NCBI GenBank assembly: GCA_016793095.1
Contig: JAEUJQ010000076.1
Span: 62,001-126,000 of the forward strand
DNA length: 64,000 bases
From: Myxococcaceae bacterium
GTDB lineage: Bacteria; Myxococcota; Myxococcia; Myxococcales; Myxococcaceae
Direction of reading: 5' to 3'
Positions within the stretch are counted from its first letter, which is position 1, and each line of letters opens with the position of its first letter. The notes below the pieces were generated by a model. That model searched no databases, was not told where the DNA came from, and saw only the letters and a program-made list of their open reading frames with translations. Position numbers and translations under genes: made by a program. Below, piece by piece: positions 26,537 through 62,562 of the stretch.

Positions 26537-27625
26537 ATGGCTCGAGCTGCGAAGTCGAAGCAGGGATCGTCGCTGGCGGCGCTGGCTGCTGGCCTCGACA
26601 CGCGCAAGAAGCCCCTGCCCGCCGACGCCAGGCCCGGCCTCGAGGCGCTCAAGGACGTGGTGAAGGCGCGGGCGCATGCGAGCGCGGAGTCCGCCGTCGC
26701 GAAGCCTCCACCAGGCAAGCCACCGCGGGCGTCGTCGCCGTCGAGGCCGCGGGGCTCCGCTCCACGGGTCAGCTCCCGGCCTGTCTCGGGCTCGCCGATC
26801 GCGAAGACTGTCGGGTCGTCGCCTCCCGCGAAGCCTCAGGCGTCCGCGCACGCCCCAAAGCCAGCGCCGTCCGCGCACGCTTCGAAGCCGCCGTCCGCGC
26901 ACGCCGCGAAGCCGGCGCCGTCCGCGCACGCCACGAAGCCGGCGCCGTCCGCGCACTCCACGAAGCCGGCGTCGTCCCCGCACTCAGCGAAGCCGCTCGC
27001 GCGTGAGGAGCCACGAGGCTCGGCGGCTTCGTCGAGCCCGGCGCTCCCCCGGGCGGCGGCGTTGAGCTCGCTCCAGCGCGCACCCACGCTCCCGGGCCGG
27101 ACGCCGACGGCCCGGCCGACCTCTTCGACGCGCGCGCCTGAGCCCTCGAACGCACGGCGCTACCCACGAGCCCGCCTCGAGGTGCGCGCCCGCCTGTCGC
27201 TCGCCGACGACCCGAGCCGGTCCTTCGAGGCCACGCTCCCGACGGTGAACATCTCGGTGGGCGGCCTCTTTCTCGAGTCGAGCTTCTTCCTCAAGCTCGG
27301 CACGAGGCTGCTCGTCGAGCTGAAGCTGCCGCCGAAGGGCCGCGTGGTGCACGTGAAGGCCGAGGTGGTGCGGGTCGAGACGAACGGCGACGGCGGCTCG
27401 GGCTTCGCGCTGCGCTTCACCGAGTACCTCGACGGCAGCGAGGTGGTGCTCGCGACGCACTTCCTCTCGCCGGTCCTGCGCGAGTTCATCACCGCCTATG
27501 CGAAGCAGCACCGCTTCGACGCGAGCGCCGAGTACCTCGCGCACACGGCCGACGTGTTGGCGGCCTGGGAGCTCAAGAAGGCCGAGCTGGGCGGCGACGT
27601 CTGGAGTCTGACCTCGGTCTCATGA
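26537..27625 (+). CDS. PilZ-domain protein with Lys-Pro-Ala-Ser-His repeat linker
   Basis: 362 residues from an ATG with GAGAGGA upstream. Residues about 100-155 are five to six near-repeats of about nine residues (consensus KPAPSAHAx), a flexible basic linker. The PilZ domain (about 205-320) starts RRYPRARLEVRARLSL and has NISVGGLFLES. This is the RxxxR...(D/N)xSxxG pattern that binds cyclic di-GMP, with Asn in place of the usual Asp. In myxobacteria such proteins affect motility and surface behaviour. Its stop overlaps the uppP start (ATGA). Confidence 0.85.
   Translation: MARAAKSKQGSSLAALAAGLDTRKKPLPADARPGLEALKDVVKARAHASAESAVAKPPPGKPPRASSPSRPRGSAPRVSSRPVSGSPIAKTVGSSPPAKPQASAHAPKPAPSAHASKPPSAHAAKPAPSAHATKPAPSAHSTKPASSPHSAKPLAREEPRGSAASSSPALPRAAALSSLQRAPTLPGRTPTARPTSSTRAPEPSNARRYPRARLEVRARLSLADDPSRSFEATLPTVNISVGGLFLESSFFLKLGTRLLVELKLPPKGRVVHVKAEVVRVETNGDGGSGFALRFTEYLDGSEVVLATHFLSPVLREFITAYAKQHRFDASAEYLAHTADVLAAWELKKAELGGDVWSLTSVS
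26841..26995 (+). repeat. Tandem about 27-bp coding repeats
   Basis: Five to six imperfect units of about 27 bp, each carrying the core CCGTCCGCGCACGCC and AAGCC, encode the KPAPSAHA-type repeat of the PilZ protein. Unit number is likely to vary between strains. Confidence 0.8.
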
Positions 27626-43568: not shown

Positions 43569-44456
43569 GTGCTCGCCCTCGGCATCGACATCGGCGGAAC
43601 GAACGCGCGCGCGGCGGTGGTGGAGCCGGTGACCGGTCGCCTCGTCAGCTCCGCGAAGGAGGCGCTCGTCGATCGCAGCCCTGCCGCGGTCGTGGCGGTG
43701 GTGGCGGCCCTCGTCGAGCGGGTGTCCCGGGGGCATGACGTGGCCAGGGCGCCGGTCGGCGTCGGCTTCGCGGGGATGCTGCGCGGCGACGTGGTGGTGA
43801 ACGCGCCGAACCTGCACTGGCGTGACGTCGACTTCGGTGGCCCGCTCGCTCGGGCGCTGGGCCGGCCGGTGCGGCTGGTGAACGATCTCTCGGCTGCCGC
43901 GTGGGGCGAGCTCTCGGGCGGCGCGGCGCGGGGCGCGCGTGACACCTTCACGGTCTTCGTCGGCACCGGCGTCGGCAGCGCCATCATCTCTGGCGGGCGC
44001 CTGCTCTCGGGTGCGACCGGCGTCGCGGCGGAGTTCGGCCACGTGAAGCTCGTCGCCGAGGGCGGGCGGCGGTGCGGCTGTGGCGAGCACGGCTGCCTCG
44101 AGGCGTACATGGGCGGCGCGAAGCTGACGGAGTGGATGGCGGAGTCCGGCGTCGCAGGCACTCCCTCGGACCTCGAGCGCCTCGCGCTGCAGGGTGACGC
44201 TCCGGCGAAGGGGCTCTATGACTTCGCGGTCGGTCACCTCGCGCTCGCCATCGCGAATCAGGTGACGGTGCTGAACCCCGCCGTGGTGGTGCTGGGTGGC
44301 GGCGTCTTGTCGCGCTGTCCGGGCATGGTGCGGCGCGTGACCGACGTGGTGATGACGCGCGCGTCGGCGGCCTCGCGGCAGGGGCTCGAGGTGAAGCTCG
44401 CCGAGCTGGGCGACGACAGCGGCCTCGTTGGCGCCGCGCTGCTCGCGCAGGGCTGA
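43569..44456 (+). CDS. ROK-family sugar kinase (glucokinase-like)
   Basis: 295 residues from a GTG. GIDIGGTNARAAVV is the phosphate loop, LVNDLSAAAWGE holds catalytic Asp106, and the ROK zinc site is complete (His158, Cys169, Cys171, Cys176 in RCGCGEHGCLE). It probably phosphorylates glucose or a related hexose, feeding the mutase two genes upstream. Its last 80 bases (from about 44376), stop included, are repeated three more times downstream. Confidence 0.92.
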   Translation: MLALGIDIGGTNARAAVVEPVTGRLVSSAKEALVDRSPAAVVAVVAALVERVSRGHDVARAPVGVGFAGMLRGDVVVNAPNLHWRDVDFGGPLARALGRPVRLVNDLSAAAWGELSGGAARGARDTFTVFVGTGVGSAIISGGRLLSGATGVAAEFGHVKLVAEGGRRCGCGEHGCLEAYMGGAKLTEWMAESGVAGTPSDLERLALQGDAPAKGLYDFAVGHLALAIANQVTVLNPAVVVLGGGVLSRCPGMVRRVTDVVMTRASAASRQGLEVKLAELGDDSGLVGAALLAQG

Positions 44457-44762
44457 GCACGGGTCTGGCCCGGCGCCACGCGGCAGGGGCTCGAGGTGCT
44501 CGCCGAGCGGGGCGACGACGGAGGGCTCCGCGCGGGCGCGCACGGCTTCTGGCCTGGCGACACGCGACAGGAGCTCGAGCTGCGGAGCTCGCCGGCCGGG
44601 CGACGACGGAGGGCTCGTCGGCGCCGCGCTGCTCGCGCAGGGCTGAGCGCGGCGTCTGGCCCGCCGCCAAGCGGCAGGGGCTCGAGGTGTGGAGCTCACC
44701 CAGCCGGGTGACGAGGGCTCGTCGGCGCCGCGCTGCTCGCGCAGGGCAGGCGAGCAGCTGGG
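44376..44762 (+). repeat. Four tandem copies of the ROK gene 3' end
   Basis: Copies start at 44376 (the native gene end), 44481, 44565 and 44672, with spacings of 105, 84 and 107 bp. Each begins CGGCAGGGGCTCGAGG (one copy differs at two bases). The third and fourth contain GGCGCCGCGCTGCTCGCGCAGG, as in the gene; the third ends in GGCTGAGC, the fourth has lost the stop. The piece after the stop (GTCTGGCCCGGCGCCACG-like) is repeated too, so the unit spans the stop codon. Divergence shows the copies are not recent. The region from 44457 to 44839 holds nothing else recognisable. Confidence 0.9.
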
Positions 44763-45947: not shown

Positions 45948-47291
45948 TCACGGGCCGCGCACGTTGTCCCAGACGCCCCCGTCCGCGGTGGGCGCGCCGG
46001 TCGCCCACTGGTTCGTCCACGCGCTCAGCGGGACGCCGTTCACCGTCCGCGTGAAGAGCTGGTTCAACATCACGTGGGTCGGGTTGGGAGGCTCGACGAC
46101 GTAGTACTTGAGGTTGGCCTTGCCCTGGTACTGGCTGGTCAGGAGGCCGTTGGTGGCGGTCTGGAACTCCATGTCCGTCATCTGGAAGAAGCCGCTCAGC
46201 ACGTTGTCGCGCGTGTACGCGAGCAGCCCGAAGCGCCGGTTCGGGTAGGTGGTCGAGAGCCAGGCGGGGACACGGTTGAAGTCCTGGATGCAGCCGGTGC
46301 AGCCGGGGGGCTCGGCGACGTTCCACGCTGACAGCCAGTCCGAGAGCAGCTGCGCCTGGTTCGGGTTGATCATCTGCGCCGAGTCCGCGAGCCCATGCAC
46401 CTCGGCCTGGGGGAAGGCCGCCGCGAAGCGGTGGTAGTTGAGCTGCACGCCGTAGCCGCCCGCGCTCGTGCCCGTGAGCCAGATGCGCCGTGGGCCGGGG
46501 AACGTCTGCGAGAGCCGGGCGAGGTACGCCTGCACGTTCGCGGCGCCCTTGTGGTGTCCGCCATAGCTCGCCACCGTGTCGCCCGCGTGCACGTCGCCGG
46601 TGCAGTAGGGGATGAAGACGAAGCTCGCGTTGCGGAACGGGTTGTTCATGTTGGTGCGCCCGAACGCCGCGCCCAGGCTGGGAACGTCGCCCATGAAGTC
46701 GGCGCCGTTGTAGCCATCGAAGTCGGTCGCGCTGCGAATCGTGTAGCAGGTGAGGGAGTTCCAGCAGGCTCCACCGCCCTGCATGTAGATGATGACGTCA
46801 GTGGAGCGGTTCGACAGGTTGACGCCGATGCCCGTGGGTGAGCCGTTGCCGCACTCGCTGGTGGGGAAGTCGACCCACGTCCAGACCTCGTTCGGAGCGG
46901 TGATGGCGCCCGTCGTCGCGCCCCCAGCCGAGCCGCCTGCTGCGGAGCCGCCCGCTGCCGCGCCGCCTGCTGCGGAGCCGCCTCCTGTTGACCCGCCAGC
47001 CGTCGAGCCGCCAGCCGTCGAGCCGCCCGCGGAGCCGCCAGCCGTCGAGCCACCTCCCGTCGAGAAGTTCGTCGTCATGCAGCGCCCGACGGTGCAGGCC
47101 TGACCAGCGACACAGGTGTCACAGAGGTTGCCGCCGGAGCCGCACTGCGTGTTCGACGTGCCCGAGACGCACTGGTCGTCCATGGTGCAGCAGCCCGTGC
47201 AGCTGTCTGGCCGACATCGCCCTCTCGACGGCCCGCAAGCCGAGGTGAGGGCGAGAACCGGGACCGCGAGCAGGATGAAGAGGAAACGCAC
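45948..47291 (-). CDS. Pectin acetylesterase-like lipoprotein
   Basis: 447 residues from a GTG with GGAGG 6 nt upstream. Lipobox ALTSAC (Cys19), then a Cys-rich module (DSCTGCCTMDDQCVSG and CDTCVAGQACTVG) shared with the lipoprotein ending at 5323, then a long Gly/Ala/Ser linker (about 76-122). The catalytic domain (about 125-447) has IIYMQGGGACW (oxyanion loop), GTSAGGYG (nucleophile Ser) and a late NPTHVML carrying the likely catalytic His. This is the pectinacetylesterase/NOTUM family, so it probably deacylates a polysaccharide or lipid outside the cell. Confidence 0.88.
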   Translation of the reverse strand: MRFLFILLAVPVLALTSACGPSRGRCRPDSCTGCCTMDDQCVSGTSNTQCGSGGNLCDTCVAGQACTVGRCMTTNFSTGGGSTAGGSAGGSTAGGSTAGGSTGGGSAAGGAAAGGSAAGGSAGGATTGAITAPNEVWTWVDFPTSECGNGSPTGIGVNLSNRSTDVIIYMQGGGACWNSLTCYTIRSATDFDGYNGADFMGDVPSLGAAFGRTNMNNPFRNASFVFIPYCTGDVHAGDTVASYGGHHKGAANVQAYLARLSQTFPGPRRIWLTGTSAGGYGVQLNYHRFAAAFPQAEVHGLADSAQMINPNQAQLLSDWLSAWNVAEPPGCTGCIQDFNRVPAWLSTTYPNRRFGLLAYTRDNVLSGFFQMTDMEFQTATNGLLTSQYQGKANLKYYVVEPPNPTHVMLNQLFTRTVNGVPLSAWTNQWATGAPTADGGVWDNVRGP

Positions 47292-57462: not shown

Positions 57463-57912
57463 ATGGCGAACGACTTCGGCAGACGGCAGATCCTCTCGGC
57501 GGCGCTGGCGCTCGGCACCACCGGGTGCGGCTTCATCCTCTACCCGAACCGGCGCGGGCGGAGCGGCGGGAACATCGACATCCCCGTCCTCATCATCGAT
57601 CTGCTCTGGCTCATCCCCGGTCTGTTGCCCGGCGCCATCTGCCTCATCGTCGACTTCACGACCGGCTGCATCTACCGCGGCGGTGGGCGCTCCGAGACGT
57701 CGTCACCGCCGTCGGGCTCAACGTCGCTGGTGACGATGGTGGACGTGGTGCTCGACGGTGAGGTCGTCGCGACCGGCGAGGTGCAACCGGACCGCAAAGT
57801 CGAGCTCACCTGGGCGCGGCCGGCGGACGAGGCGACGGTGCGTGAGCGCGCCCGCCTCGAGGTGCGCAGCCTCGGAGGCGCGGCCGTCGCCGACGTACGC
57901 ACCCTCGTCTGA
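57463..57912 (+). CDS. Small lipoprotein with membrane hairpin
   Basis: 149 residues from an ATG preceded by GAGGAGG. Lipobox LGTTGC (Cys22). GFILYPNRRGRSGGNIDIPVLIIDLLWLIPGLLPGAICLIVDFTTGCIY matches a small lipoprotein family found in gamma-proteobacteria (pattern T-I-x-x-P-E-R-R-G...SGxIDxxV). The last 75 residues are a soluble beta-rich part. Its final 111 bases, stop included, are repeated twice downstream. Confidence 0.75.
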   Translation: MANDFGRRQILSAALALGTTGCGFILYPNRRGRSGGNIDIPVLIIDLLWLIPGLLPGAICLIVDFTTGCIYRGGGRSETSSPPSGSTSLVTMVDVVLDGEVVATGEVQPDRKVELTWARPADEATVRERARLEVRSLGGAAVADVRTLV

Positions 57913-58156
57913 CACGCCGCGACGAACGTCACCACGAGCTCACCTGGGCGCGGCCGGTGGACGAGGCGACGGTGCGTGAGCGCGCCGCCGTCGTCGACGT
58001 AAGGACCCTCGTCTGACACGCCGCGACCAACCGCACCGCGAGCTCTCCTGGGCGCGGCCGGTGGACGAGGCGACAGTGCATGAGCTCGCCCGCCTCGAGG
58101 TGCGCAGCCTGCCGTCGCCGACGTACGCACCCTCGTCTGACACGTCGCGACGAGCC
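57802..58156 (+). repeat. Three tandem copies of the lipoprotein gene 3' end
   Basis: Copies start at 57802 (native end of the gene), 57936 and 58040, each beginning GAGCTC(A/T)CCTGGGCGCGG and ending ACCCTCGTCTGACACG(C/T)C, so the stop codon and the bases after it are included. Copy two lacks 30 bases of copy one (an in-frame loss); copy three lacks 10. They fill the space up to the convergent metallohydrolase gene. The repeats share no sequence with those after the ROK gene, but have the same layout. Confidence 0.92.
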
Positions 58157-58164
58157 GCGCGGAG

Positions 58165-61161
58165 TCAGTCGTGCTTGTGCTCGAGCAGCTTCTCGAGCGC
58201 GCGGGCAAACTCGTCCGCCGTGGGCACCTTCGGCTGCGGGGCGGGCCGCGGCGCGACGCTGAGCGGTTGGCCGGGCTTCAGCGGGAAGTCGTCGTAGCGG
58301 CCCGAGCCGTCGGCATCGATGAGGATGGCGTTCGTGTACGCGACGGGCAGGCCGCCGTGCAGCGGCCGCATCGAGCGGCTCGAGCCGCGCACCATCACCA
58401 CGTACCAGGTGTCCTTCGCGGGGCGCACCACCACCTTCTCGGTGACGTGCAGCCGGCGCAGCTGCGTGCCCGGCACCGGCTCGACCGTCTGCATCGCGAT
58501 GGCCTTCCGCTCGACCGCCCGCGCCTCGGGCCAGCTCGAGTTCGTCTCGCCGTTCACCGCCTCCCGACCCGCGGCGTGGCTGTAGACCTCGACCCGGTCC
58601 ACCACGAGCCACTCGGGGCCCTGAATGTCCACGCTCAGCTCGACCGCGTCGTTCGCCGCGACCGACAACGTCTGGCCGATGCCAACGGGAGAGCCGACCG
58701 GCTGCATCGCCCCGTCGAGCTTGCGCGCCGAGACCTGCAGGTACGGGCCGTTCGAGACGAAGGCCTGCTGCGTGCGAATGGCGTCGGCGAACTGCTGCGG
58801 CTGGAAGGTGCTGGGCGTGTCGTTCGCCACCTTCGCGTACGTGCGGCAGTAGCCCGGGTCGTCGCTGAACGGCTTGTGCGTGTCCGACACGCCGGTGGCG
58901 GTGCGCACGGTGCCCCGCGAGAGGAACGTCATCCAGTCGTTCATCACCGCGTTGCTCGGGCCCAGCCCGTTGGCCGACTCGATGGCGTCGAAGCCGTCGC
59001 CGAAGAGCTTCGTGTTGCTGGCGGTCGCGTCGCTGGCGGGCTCCATGCCGAACGCCGCAGGGTCGCTGTGAGTGGCGAGCGTCGCGGTGTCGACGCGAAG
59101 CTGAGACAACACGCCGCTGCCGCCGCGCGGGTGGTTGAGCTGCACGACCGCGCCGGGGTGCTCGGCTTTGATGCCCGAGAAGATCTGCGGCATGCGCAGC
59201 GACGGCCCGTCTTCGCCGCCTGCGTGGTCGAACGCGCCGCCGTTGGGCAGGTCGGGGTTCCGCTTGAGCGGGAAGGTGTTGAAGTGGCCGTACGAGAAGG
59301 TCGTCACCTCCTCGCCGATCATCGTGCCCATCAACTGCTCGGCGCCGAGCGCGCGCACCACCGGAGCGAAGTCGGTGATGACCTCGTGGTCGGTCGAGAG
59401 CAGTACGTCGACGCCCTCGGCGAGGAAGTTGGCCGCACGGAGTTCGTTGAGCACCGCGCTGTCCGAGCTGGCCACCGCGTGCACGTGCAGGTCCGCCGAG
59501 ATCCACCCCGGGGTGTCCACGACGCGGCCGATGGTGGCCGAGAGCGACGCGTCGGCGGTGCGCAGATCGACCGGCTGGCCGCGCGTGGGCCAGGTGTCGG
59601 GCCAGGTGCTGAACTCGGGCCCGCGAGAGACCACCACGTCGTACTGCCCGGGCGGCAGCGTCAGCACGAGCTGCCCGGACACCGGCACGAAGCCCACGAG
59701 CGCGGCGCCCATGCCCGGCTTGTCAATCAGCAGGTGCTGCTTCCAGGTGTCGGGGCTGAAGTCGCACGGGGTGGACTGGCAGAACACCGTCACCTTCGCA
59801 GGCGAGGGCGCGTTGCTCGGGTCCTTCACGGTGACGGTGAGGCGGCGGCCGGTGCCCTGCGCGAGCGCGACCTGGGTCGTCTGGCCGGCGGTGATGGTGA
59901 AGGTGGTGGGCGCGCCGATGGTGAAGCCCTCCTTCGACGCGGTGGCGCGGTACTCGCCGGGCTCGAGGGTGAGCTTCGTCTTGCCGTCGGCGCCGGTGAC
60001 GGCGAGCGTCGTCATCAGCCCCGACGAGGTCTCGGTGATGCTCACGCGCGCCTCGCCGGCCGGCGCCACCGTGAGCTCGGCGCTGCCGGTCGTGGCGCCC
60101 TCGGTGGCCAGCACCACGTCGCTCACGCCGGCGATGTCCTTCGCGATGATGAAGTCGCGCACGAAGTGGCGCTTCTCCTTCGCGAGGATGTTGAAGGACC
60201 CGGGCCGAACGGCCGCCTCCTTGTCGAACCACGCGAGGATGCCCTGCAGGCTCTCGCCCTCGAGGAAGGTGCCCACGACGCCGCCGTAGCCGATGACGGC
60301 GTTCGTCTTCGCGGGCTTCGTCGGGTCCTTCAGCGTCATGGTGCGCAGGGCGTAGGCGACGCCGTCACCCTGCGTGGCGATCCACTTCGACTTCTGCGCG
60401 AGGCAGTTGGTGTCGTCGAGCTTGCTGGTGCCGATGCCGTTGTGACAGCCGCCCGGGTTGAAGAGCTCGAACGCGCCCACATCCATCAGCTCGATGAGCG
60501 GCAGGCGCAGCGTCGCGTCGGAGTCGTTGCAGATGGCCGACAGCATGCGCACGCGCGACTCGCCCGGCGAGAGCACGAAGTACGTCGTCAGGCGCGCGTT
60601 CACCGGGACCGACGGGTCGACGACGGGCTCGACGGGCAGGCCGGCCACGTTGTTGAGCAAGAGCTTCAGGTTGAGCAGGTCGTGGGCCACGTCCTTGCCC
60701 GAGGCGGCGACGACGGCGGGGCCTCCCGAGCTGCCGTCGCTCAGCACCTCGACGTCGGTGACCGACGAGAAGCGGCCCAGTGAGTAGAAGAGCCCCATGC
60801 GGCCGAAGGCGTCGCGCCCGCCCTGGCCCTCGGGGCGCACGAGGTCGGCGTCGACGATGTTGCCGCCCGAGAGGATGGGGCCGACCGTGCGGCCGGGCTG
60901 CTCGACGATGACGCGCACCTTGTCGTTCTGCAGCAGCACGTCACCGACGCGCCCCTGGGCGTTGGAGCCGCCGATCAACTGCGCCGCCGATTCCACCGTC
61001 TTCGCCGAGGCGCCCGAGCCTTCCCATGAGAACAACCCGGTGGACTTGAGATCGACCTCGCAGCGGCGGGGGTTGGTGGGGCCGCCGCCTCCTCCGGGCT
61101 TCGGGCACGAGGTGAGCAGCAGGACGGCGACGGCGACGACGGTGAGGCGGGTGTGTTGCAT
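58165..61161 (-). CDS. CehA/McbA-family PHP metallohydrolase lipoprotein
   Basis: 998 residues from the ATG at 61161. Lipobox LLLTSC (Cys19) and a short Gly linker. Residues about 35-380 form a beta-rich domain (FSWEGSGASAKTVESAAQLIGG), followed by carboxypeptidase-regulatory-like folds (about 390-560). The PHP domain begins at WISADLHVHAVASSDS, with STDHEVITDFAP and QLNHPRGGSG supplying further metal-binding residues. Relatives hydrolyse phosphoesters or carbamates, but the substrate here is unknown. It should act outside the inner membrane. Confidence 0.85.
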   Translation of the reverse strand: MQHTRLTVVAVAVLLLTSCPKPGGGGGPTNPRRCEVDLKSTGLFSWEGSGASAKTVESAAQLIGGSNAQGRVGDVLLQNDKVRVIVEQPGRTVGPILSGGNIVDADLVRPEGQGGRDAFGRMGLFYSLGRFSSVTDVEVLSDGSSGGPAVVAASGKDVAHDLLNLKLLLNNVAGLPVEPVVDPSVPVNARLTTYFVLSPGESRVRMLSAICNDSDATLRLPLIELMDVGAFELFNPGGCHNGIGTSKLDDTNCLAQKSKWIATQGDGVAYALRTMTLKDPTKPAKTNAVIGYGGVVGTFLEGESLQGILAWFDKEAAVRPGSFNILAKEKRHFVRDFIIAKDIAGVSDVVLATEGATTGSAELTVAPAGEARVSITETSSGLMTTLAVTGADGKTKLTLEPGEYRATASKEGFTIGAPTTFTITAGQTTQVALAQGTGRRLTVTVKDPSNAPSPAKVTVFCQSTPCDFSPDTWKQHLLIDKPGMGAALVGFVPVSGQLVLTLPPGQYDVVVSRGPEFSTWPDTWPTRGQPVDLRTADASLSATIGRVVDTPGWISADLHVHAVASSDSAVLNELRAANFLAEGVDVLLSTDHEVITDFAPVVRALGAEQLMGTMIGEEVTTFSYGHFNTFPLKRNPDLPNGGAFDHAGGEDGPSLRMPQIFSGIKAEHPGAVVQLNHPRGGSGVLSQLRVDTATLATHSDPAAFGMEPASDATASNTKLFGDGFDAIESANGLGPSNAVMNDWMTFLSRGTVRTATGVSDTHKPFSDDPGYCRTYAKVANDTPSTFQPQQFADAIRTQQAFVSNGPYLQVSARKLDGAMQPVGSPVGIGQTLSVAANDAVELSVDIQGPEWLVVDRVEVYSHAAGREAVNGETNSSWPEARAVERKAIAMQTVEPVPGTQLRRLHVTEKVVVRPAKDTWYVVMVRGSSRSMRPLHGGLPVAYTNAILIDADGSGRYDDFPLKPGQPLSVAPRPAPQPKVPTADEFARALEKLLEHKHD

Positions 61162-61314
61162 GCGCGTGACAAAGCCCAGCCACGCCCGCGGGACAAGGTG
61201 GGGTCCGGGAACCTGCTGATGCGTCGGGTCAGACGAGGCGCGCCGCGCGTCCCCGTTCTCCTGGCAGGGGAGCAGGTCGCGCGGTGAACGAGCCTGGAGC
61301 GGCGAGGTCACCCG

Positions 61315-62562
61315 TTACAGACACGCCCCGCTGAAACAGGGCGCGCCTGCACAGCACGACAGTCCCGGTTCGCAGGCGCTGCCTCGAGGCGCGCAGGTGT
61401 TCGCCGCCCTCGTTCCCGTGCGGACGCCGTAGAACACCTGCGCCCGGTTGAGGTCCACGCTCACCACGTCGAGCGCGCCGTCTCCGTCGAGATCGCCCAC
61501 CGCCACCCGGTGCGCCTGGTCCCCCGTCGGAAGCGCGAGGCGCCGCTCGAACTCCCCCTGCCCGTCGTTGAAGAGCACGTGCAGGCGTTCGCCACGGTGG
61601 TCGGCGACGACGAGGTCGTGGTGGCCATCGGCATCGAGGTCGGCTGCCTCGACGTCGGTCGGTTCGACGCCGACGGACAGCTCACGCCAGCGCCGCCCGA
61701 GGGCATCGTGAAGCACGAGCACCATCGGTCCCTCACCCCAGCTCGTGACCGCGAGGTCGATGGGCCCCTGGTGGTCGAGGTCGATCGCCGTCATCGCGCC
61801 AAGGCCGCCTCGAAGGGCGAGGCGCTCGGCTGCCGCGAAGCCTCCGCGGCCGTCACCCCGGCGAAAGGCCAGCCCTCCGTGCACCTGACCGACGAGATCG
61901 ACGGCGCCGTCTCCGTCGAAATCGGCGATGGCCGGGTCGCTCGGCTGCGCAAAGCCATCGACGGCGCGCGCCTCGAACCCGCCATCTCCGAGCGATCGCG
62001 CGATGGTGACGACGTTGTCGCTGCCGTTGCCGACGACGAGGTCGAGGCGGCCGTCGCCGTCGAGATCGCGCAGCTGCACCGAGACCGGCCCCACGCCCGT
62101 GGGCCATTTGCCGAGAAAGCGCGGACCCCGCGAGGTTCCAGCGAAGACGCCCACCGTGCCCTCGAAGTCGTAGGGGACCGCGAGCTCTGGAAAGCCGTCG
62201 GCGTCGAGATCGGCGGCGGCGAGACCAAACGCCTCGCCGTGCGACGGGAACGAGGCAACCTCAAACCGCCGTTCATCCTCGTTGAAGAGCACCTGCAGTG
62301 AAGAATGACCCGCGATGACCACGTCGAGACGGCCGTCGCCGTTCAGGTCGGTGAGCGCGAGCTCCGACGCCCCGTCTGCGGTCGGCAGCAGGATCGGACT
62401 CTCTGCACCCCAGCCAGGTGCCATGGACGCGGGGGGCGGGTCCGGCGTGTACCGCCGATCCGGCTCGATGGAGGTTCTCGGGTGGCTCGGCCCGGGTGAC
62501 GGGGCGAGGGGCCGATCGGCACAGGCAGCGAGGAGGGGAACGGAGAGGAACAGAGAGCGCAT
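61315..62562 (-). CDS. FG-GAP/VCBS-repeat lipoprotein
   Basis: 415 residues from an ATG with GGAGGG upstream. Lipobox PLLAAC (Cys14). Six to seven FG-GAP repeats follow, each with a calcium-binding loop such as DLNGDGRLDV, DLDADGFPEL, DLDGDGRLDLVVGN, DFDGDGAVDL and DLDGDGALDV. They fold into an integrin-like beta-propeller. The tail is Cys-rich (CAPRGSACEPGLSCC). It is inferred to be a surface adhesion or recognition protein; no enzymatic motif. Confidence 0.88.
   Translation of the reverse strand: MRSLFLSVPLLAACADRPLAPSPGPSHPRTSIEPDRRYTPDPPPASMAPGWGAESPILLPTADGASELALTDLNGDGRLDVVIAGHSSLQVLFNEDERRFEVASFPSHGEAFGLAAADLDADGFPELAVPYDFEGTVGVFAGTSRGPRFLGKWPTGVGPVSVQLRDLDGDGRLDLVVGNGSDNVVTIARSLGDGGFEARAVDGFAQPSDPAIADFDGDGAVDLVGQVHGGLAFRRGDGRGGFAAAERLALRGGLGAMTAIDLDHQGPIDLAVTSWGEGPMVLVLHDALGRRWRELSVGVEPTDVEAADLDADGHHDLVVADHRGERLHVLFNDGQGEFERRLALPTGDQAHRVAVGDLDGDGALDVVSVDLNRAQVFYGVRTGTRAANTCAPRGSACEPGLSCCAGAPCFSGACL

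Follow-up and report, generated by a model that had tools for sequence, protein, structure and literature searches.

The small lipoprotein gene in the window analyzed here (a 64,000 bp stretch, C66:62001-126000, of an 8.81 Mb draft Myxococcaceae genome in 93 contigs) is followed by a real, old, and decaying tandem duplication of its own tail, and this array is one of many in the genome. The arrays span stop codons more often than start codons; rather than being drawn to 3' ends, they avoid 5' ends and the disruption of reading frames. We consider it likely that ordinary tandem duplication followed by decay, with purifying selection filtering the survivors, accounts for these arrays, and that the heavy load of them results from either a raised duplication rate or a raised tolerance of duplications.

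Results

The lipoprotein gene could also begin at an upstream GTG (57391), which is likewise open. The N-terminus of the product contains a signal and a lipobox-like sequence (..TTGCGF), and its core, IDIPVLIIDLLWLIPG, is conserved; a Pfam scan of the protein gave no match, and orthologues with 58–65% protein identity are present in uncultured Myxococcaceae/Archangiaceae. The convergent gap between this gene and its minus-strand neighbor is filled by tail copies of the gene (Table 1). These form three adjoining head-to-tail copies of a single unit, delimited by direct-repeat search, TRF, and MAFFT, and the array is thus an imperfect tandem duplication, or minisatellite, with the similarity of unit 3 running out near 58158. 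The earlier note had the gene end recurring at 57936 and 58040, and while both copies are present, each starts one base sooner than it proposed; the 30- and 10-base deletions that it described in the tail copies are confirmed by alignment. The gapped self-match of the array scores 188 bits (E about 1e-50), which together with the shuffled-sequence control described below excludes a chance origin. The array is present at only one place in the whole genome and has no similarity to other stop-spanning arrays, as expected of a repeat that arose locally. Because the unit lengths of 134 and 104 nt are not multiples of three, readthrough of the stop codon would not yield a repeated peptide.

Table 1. 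Positions within the window of the lipoprotein gene, its repeat units, and associated features.
Feature	Position	Strand	Remarks
Small lipoprotein gene	57463..57912	+	149 aa from ATG; stop TGA 57910-57912
Repeat unit 1 (gene copy), 134 nt	57801..57934	+	Last 112 nt of the gene including TGA, then 22 trailing nt
Repeat unit 2 (tail copy), 104 nt	57935..58038	+	30-nt deletion relative to unit 1; TGA and trailing bases retained
Repeat unit 3 (tail copy), ~124 nt	58039..~58162	+	10-nt deletion relative to unit 1
CAACCGGACCGC, just 5' of unit 1	57784..57795	+	11/12 identical to CAACCGCACCGC
CAACCGCACCGC, unit 2/3 junction	58028-58039	+	11/12 identical to CAACCGGACCGC
Convergent neighbor, 1048 aa, CarboxypepD_reg domain	58165..61311	-	
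ROK tail array, partial copies of the gene 3' end	44365..44747	+	Offsets 106, 189, 296; ROK gene 43569-44456

The self-match of the array extends leftward to 57791/58030, and the nearly identical segments CAACCGGACCGC and CAACCGCACCGC are a plausible candidate for the short homology used in the duplication, a junction read from 11 matching bases of 12.

Decay of the copies is directly evident. Outside the gaps, 16 of 134 aligned columns differ among the copies, with eight of these lying within the 22 bases after the stop, and most of the derived changes and both deletions are in the tail copies; indels are among the differences, which show no adenine specificity. At 57824 the gene copy has GCG (Ala), whereas units 2 and 3 have GTG (Val), and same-genus genes also encode Val, so it is the gene copy that has the derived base here, and the duplication predates this change within the gene. 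Orthologues of the lipoprotein gene are present in three same-genus genomes with 75, 74, and 72% nucleotide identity, and also in named Myxococcaceae/Archangiaceae MAGs, some of which are apparently the same contigs. None of these orthologues has tail repeats, and neither do five orthologues of the ROK gene; at the resolution offered by congeners with 72–75% nucleotide identity, the tail arrays appear to be private to this lineage.

A genome scan of the kind that the earlier note had called for, covering 1.435 Mb (16%) of the genome and including the window, revealed further cases. Genes were called with a codon model, and local direct repeats were those that scored above 50 bits, with a period of at most 350, when the sequence was compared with itself with gaps allowed. 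With gene ends taken from these codon-model calls, unchecked against the annotation, and with small counts throughout, there are 11 stop-spanning arrays, one start-spanning array, two spanning both, two at edges, and 42 inside genes, together with eight in convergent gaps, six in codirectional gaps, and one in a divergent gap; seven mutually homologous arrays whose periods are multiples of 15 nt were left out of these classes. The stop-spanning count is best regarded as 10–11 because one case (C85:67846) involves a doubtful ORF, and the single start-spanning array similarly involves a doubtful gene. When codons were shuffled within genes and bases within gaps, no arrays of such strength were found except for three at stretch ends that were left unshuffled. 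Gene-tail duplication therefore recurs in this genome, with the 11 stop-spanning arrays having no counterpart in shuffled sequence away from the stretch ends.

The array units are 60–160 bp long, GC-rich, diverged by 5–28%, and mostly present in two to four copies, and 40 of the 42 in-gene arrays have a unit length divisible by three. The stop-spanning cases are mostly clean duplications of real gene tails, such as those of a TPR-like protein and the ROK gene (gene names were read off the proteins, with the Pfam scan covering ROK and the window genes), and most of those with two copies are likewise head-to-tail without an insert, with an overhang of -8 to +12 nt; the exceptions are L065 (-24) and L085 (+23). 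The array at the ROK gene, presented in the earlier note as a second case, is real and consists of partial copies of the gene 3' end. The two sets of repeats are unrelated in sequence, as had also been noted, and we found no motif or sequence shared among the stop-spanning arrays. Of all the arrays, the one group with sequence in common is the coding-like set with 15-nt-multiple periods, so the repeats are not a mobile element. One of the arrays spanning both a stop and a start (L049; C85:172320-172527) is a tandem duplication of an ATGA stop/start overlap at a MenD-like/hydrolase junction, in which a 100-bp unit with 94% identity leaves a spare menD tail and a second start ahead of the downstream hydrolase gene.

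The sizes of the targets were taken into account by random placement of same-length units, assuming uniform duplication. The number of arrays per 1% of target is highest for convergent gaps (7.0), followed by stops in convergent gaps (2.9), codirectional gaps (2.1), and stops in codirectional gaps (1.7), and is low for divergent gaps (0.8), both ends (0.65), gene interiors (0.5), and starts (0.2). Stop-spanning arrays outnumber start-spanning arrays 11 to 1 on targets of near-equal size (p=0.0026), and 11 to 3 if the seven 15-nt-period arrays are kept in (p=0.03). The further cases and the excess over starts that the earlier note had looked for are thereby confirmed. Relative to target, there is no excess of stop-spanning over wholly intergenic arrays (11 vs 15, p=0.70), and the stop codon has no effect within either convergent gaps (p=0.10, in the direction of fewer) or codirectional gaps (p=1.0). 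Convergent gaps and their stops together exceed starts and divergent gaps (p=2e-5), and convergent gaps exceed codirectional ones at p=0.057. These densities, together with the frame-keeping units inside genes, indicate that stops have no attraction of their own and that the arrays avoid starts and divergent gaps. The gene-end process that the earlier note had proposed on the strength of two cases is thus unsupported, as stop-spanning arrays are no denser per target than intergenic ones.

The array load is nonetheless raised several-fold over that of the controls. In the 1.435 Mb scanned here, 31 arrays lie at least partly outside genes, compared with nine in 1.697 Mb of control sequence (p=8e-5), although the same-genus controls are draft long contigs that may under-represent repeats, a problem that closed controls do not have. 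The eight control replicons were from two same-genus, two same-family, and two same-order genomes, and the megaplasmids of Cupriavidus metallidurans and Sinorhizobium meliloti; one of the order-level controls (G033) comes close to this genome in arrays per Mb, but per non-coding base its rate is half as high. Loss of MutS was considered as a cause of the high load and rejected, as there are three MutS-type matches, the same as in all six congeners. Duplication with selection does not itself supply the cause of the raised load.

Discussion

The likeliest course of events begins with head-to-tail duplication of a segment of about 130 bp, one that by chance included the stop codon, probably by slippage or by recombination between short imperfect repeats. 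Unequal exchange involving these two copies would then probably have produced the third. With the complete C-terminus and stop codon retained in the first copy, the gene would be unharmed, and the tail copies, which we take to be neutral, would be free to decay through substitution and deletion. In a lineage with either a raised duplication rate or a raised tolerance of duplications, many such events would survive, and selection would be expected to purge those that break a reading frame or shift a start site or promoter. What survives would accordingly lie between convergent genes, over stop codons, or within genes with the frame kept. The observed distribution is the one to be expected if tandem duplications fall at random and purifying selection then acts on them, and there is no need for a process that targets gene ends.

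An alternative is a mutational process on the 3' side of transcription units, in which terminating or converging RNA polymerases give rise to fork stalls or R-loops, and template-switch repair duplicates about 100 bp. This would fit with the high density of arrays in convergent gaps, with six of the ten stop-spanning arrays with a known neighbor facing a convergent gene, and with a genome-wide load above that of the controls; moreover, the excess of convergent over codirectional arrays is predicted by a convergent-transcription mechanism as well, which weighs against duplication and selection as the full account. However, stops have no specific excess over intergenic DNA in the same type of gap, the fully intergenic arrays in codirectional gaps are not clustered at the end of the upstream gene, one array is in a divergent gap, and the frame-keeping in-gene arrays reflect duplications that arise inside genes too. 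We therefore regard such a process as unlikely. It is similarly doubtful that a repair or replication defect of the lineage, or a transcription-end pathway, makes tandem duplications of about 100 bp at a high rate and concentrated at convergent gaps and 3' ends, but if so, gene-tail duplication would be a distinct mutational signature of this genome.

We think it improbable that the tail repeats are functional and kept by selection, whether as a 3'-UTR structure or terminator array, as protection of mRNA ends, or as a spare template for the gene end. Each unit does contain an imperfect inverted repeat (GACGAGG..GTGCGT / ACGCAC..CCTCGTC), and unit 1 folds with a z of about -2, but in units 2 and 3 the stem is disrupted by substitutions, and the tails taken whole have no folding advantage over shuffled sequence (z +0.83 and -0.76). 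Genome-wide, the units are barely better folded than other gene ends (mean z -0.47, with a higher G+C content in the units), an Rfam search gave nothing near threshold, and the orthologues manage without tails.

Diversity-generating retroelements (DGRs) and phage attachment sites duplicate gene 3' ends at a comparable length scale, and the genome does encode four reverse transcriptase domains (C19:215609, C36:50800, C71:51804, and C71:64050, with the C71 pair 12 kb apart). It is nonetheless very improbable that a mobile or reverse-transcribing element, as a DGR template with its variable repeats, an attachment-site duplication, or a dispersed repeat family, is responsible, as the reverse transcriptase genes are on contigs other than that of the array, the differences include indels and are not adenine-specific, the copies abut with nothing between them, and the stop-spanning arrays are mutually unrelated, with the lipoprotein array being single-copy in the genome. 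Neither a dispersed copy of the unit nor an integrase beside the array was found. A DGR would have adenine-specific differences and a reverse transcriptase nearby, and we find neither; an attachment-site origin is rejected by the spectrum of differences, the adjacency of the copies, and the positions of the reverse transcriptase genes; and a REP- or MITE-type dispersed repeat would have many related copies in the genome, which this one lacks. An assembly artefact is hardly credible even in a draft of this many contigs, as there are numerous differences among the copies, each tail copy has a deletion of its own, and about 12 arrays of the stop-spanning type are inside contigs with their gene context intact.

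Related patterns are known elsewhere. Among the VNTRs of Yersinia pestis, ten loci overlap stops and six overlap starts, the units within ORFs are divisible by three, and loci near 5' ends are less diverse, which the authors attribute to stronger purifying selection, with changes in copy number at 3' ends being less harmful to the ORF (PMC3689786). The arrays here are alike in spanning stops more than starts and in their in-frame units, although the Y. pestis VNTRs have units of mostly 7–21 bp and are polymorphic among strains, whereas ours are longer and diverged. The tandem repeats of Borg elements are similarly a genome-specific load of independently arisen head-to-tail repeats, with in-ORF units divisible by three and absent from homologues (PMC9879509), but they are perfect, A-enriched, and multi-copy, unlike the GC-rich arrays of few copies described here. 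Spontaneous duplications in Salmonella are bounded by short direct homologies, about 11 bp or longer (PMC3411829). The lipoprotein array resembles them in its short junction homology, although its junction is inferred. The Salmonella events are reportedly larger. Mycobacterial interspersed repetitive units and exact tandem repeats have a similar unit length and lie at gene borders, but the former are one dispersed sequence family, in contrast to the mutually unrelated stop-spanning arrays. Our literature searches turned up no account of long tandem duplications across stop codons in myxobacteria.

In this genome, tandem duplications of about 100 bp survive across stops and in convergent gaps roughly ten times more than across starts, and those inside genes nearly always maintain the frame. 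If selection is indeed the filter, the positions of the arrays provide a readable footprint of what it tolerates in each part of a gene. The load above that of relatives points to a lineage-specific and traceable change in duplication rate or tolerance. We also note, for annotators, that a gene-tail fragment lying 3' of a stop may be neither a gene nor a regulatory element.

Several other repeats were encountered. The seven mutually homologous arrays (L056:19331, L061:11379, L064:8566, L082:9829, L098:94, L098:5938, and L098:14327) have periods that are mostly multiples of 15 nt and are on several contigs in both orientations; they are probably coding repeats missed by the gene caller and possibly constitute one dispersed repeat-protein family. 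A long array at L097:9919-10862, with units of about 120 bp, begins 5 nt past the stop of a gene and fills a convergent gap. At the start of C66 (positions 1-466; L034) units of about 64/127 bp lie directly 3' of a sigma-factor-like gene, and this array is possibly the cause of the assembly break there. Within the window, 27-bp tandem repeats of about six copies at 26826-26996 are partly outside called genes, and a 15-bp period array at 46919-47064 within the minus-strand gene 45948-47183 corresponds to a low-complexity repeat region in its product. Diverged repeats with a spacing of about 140 bp are also present at 61600-62350, within the minus-strand gene 61315-62424.
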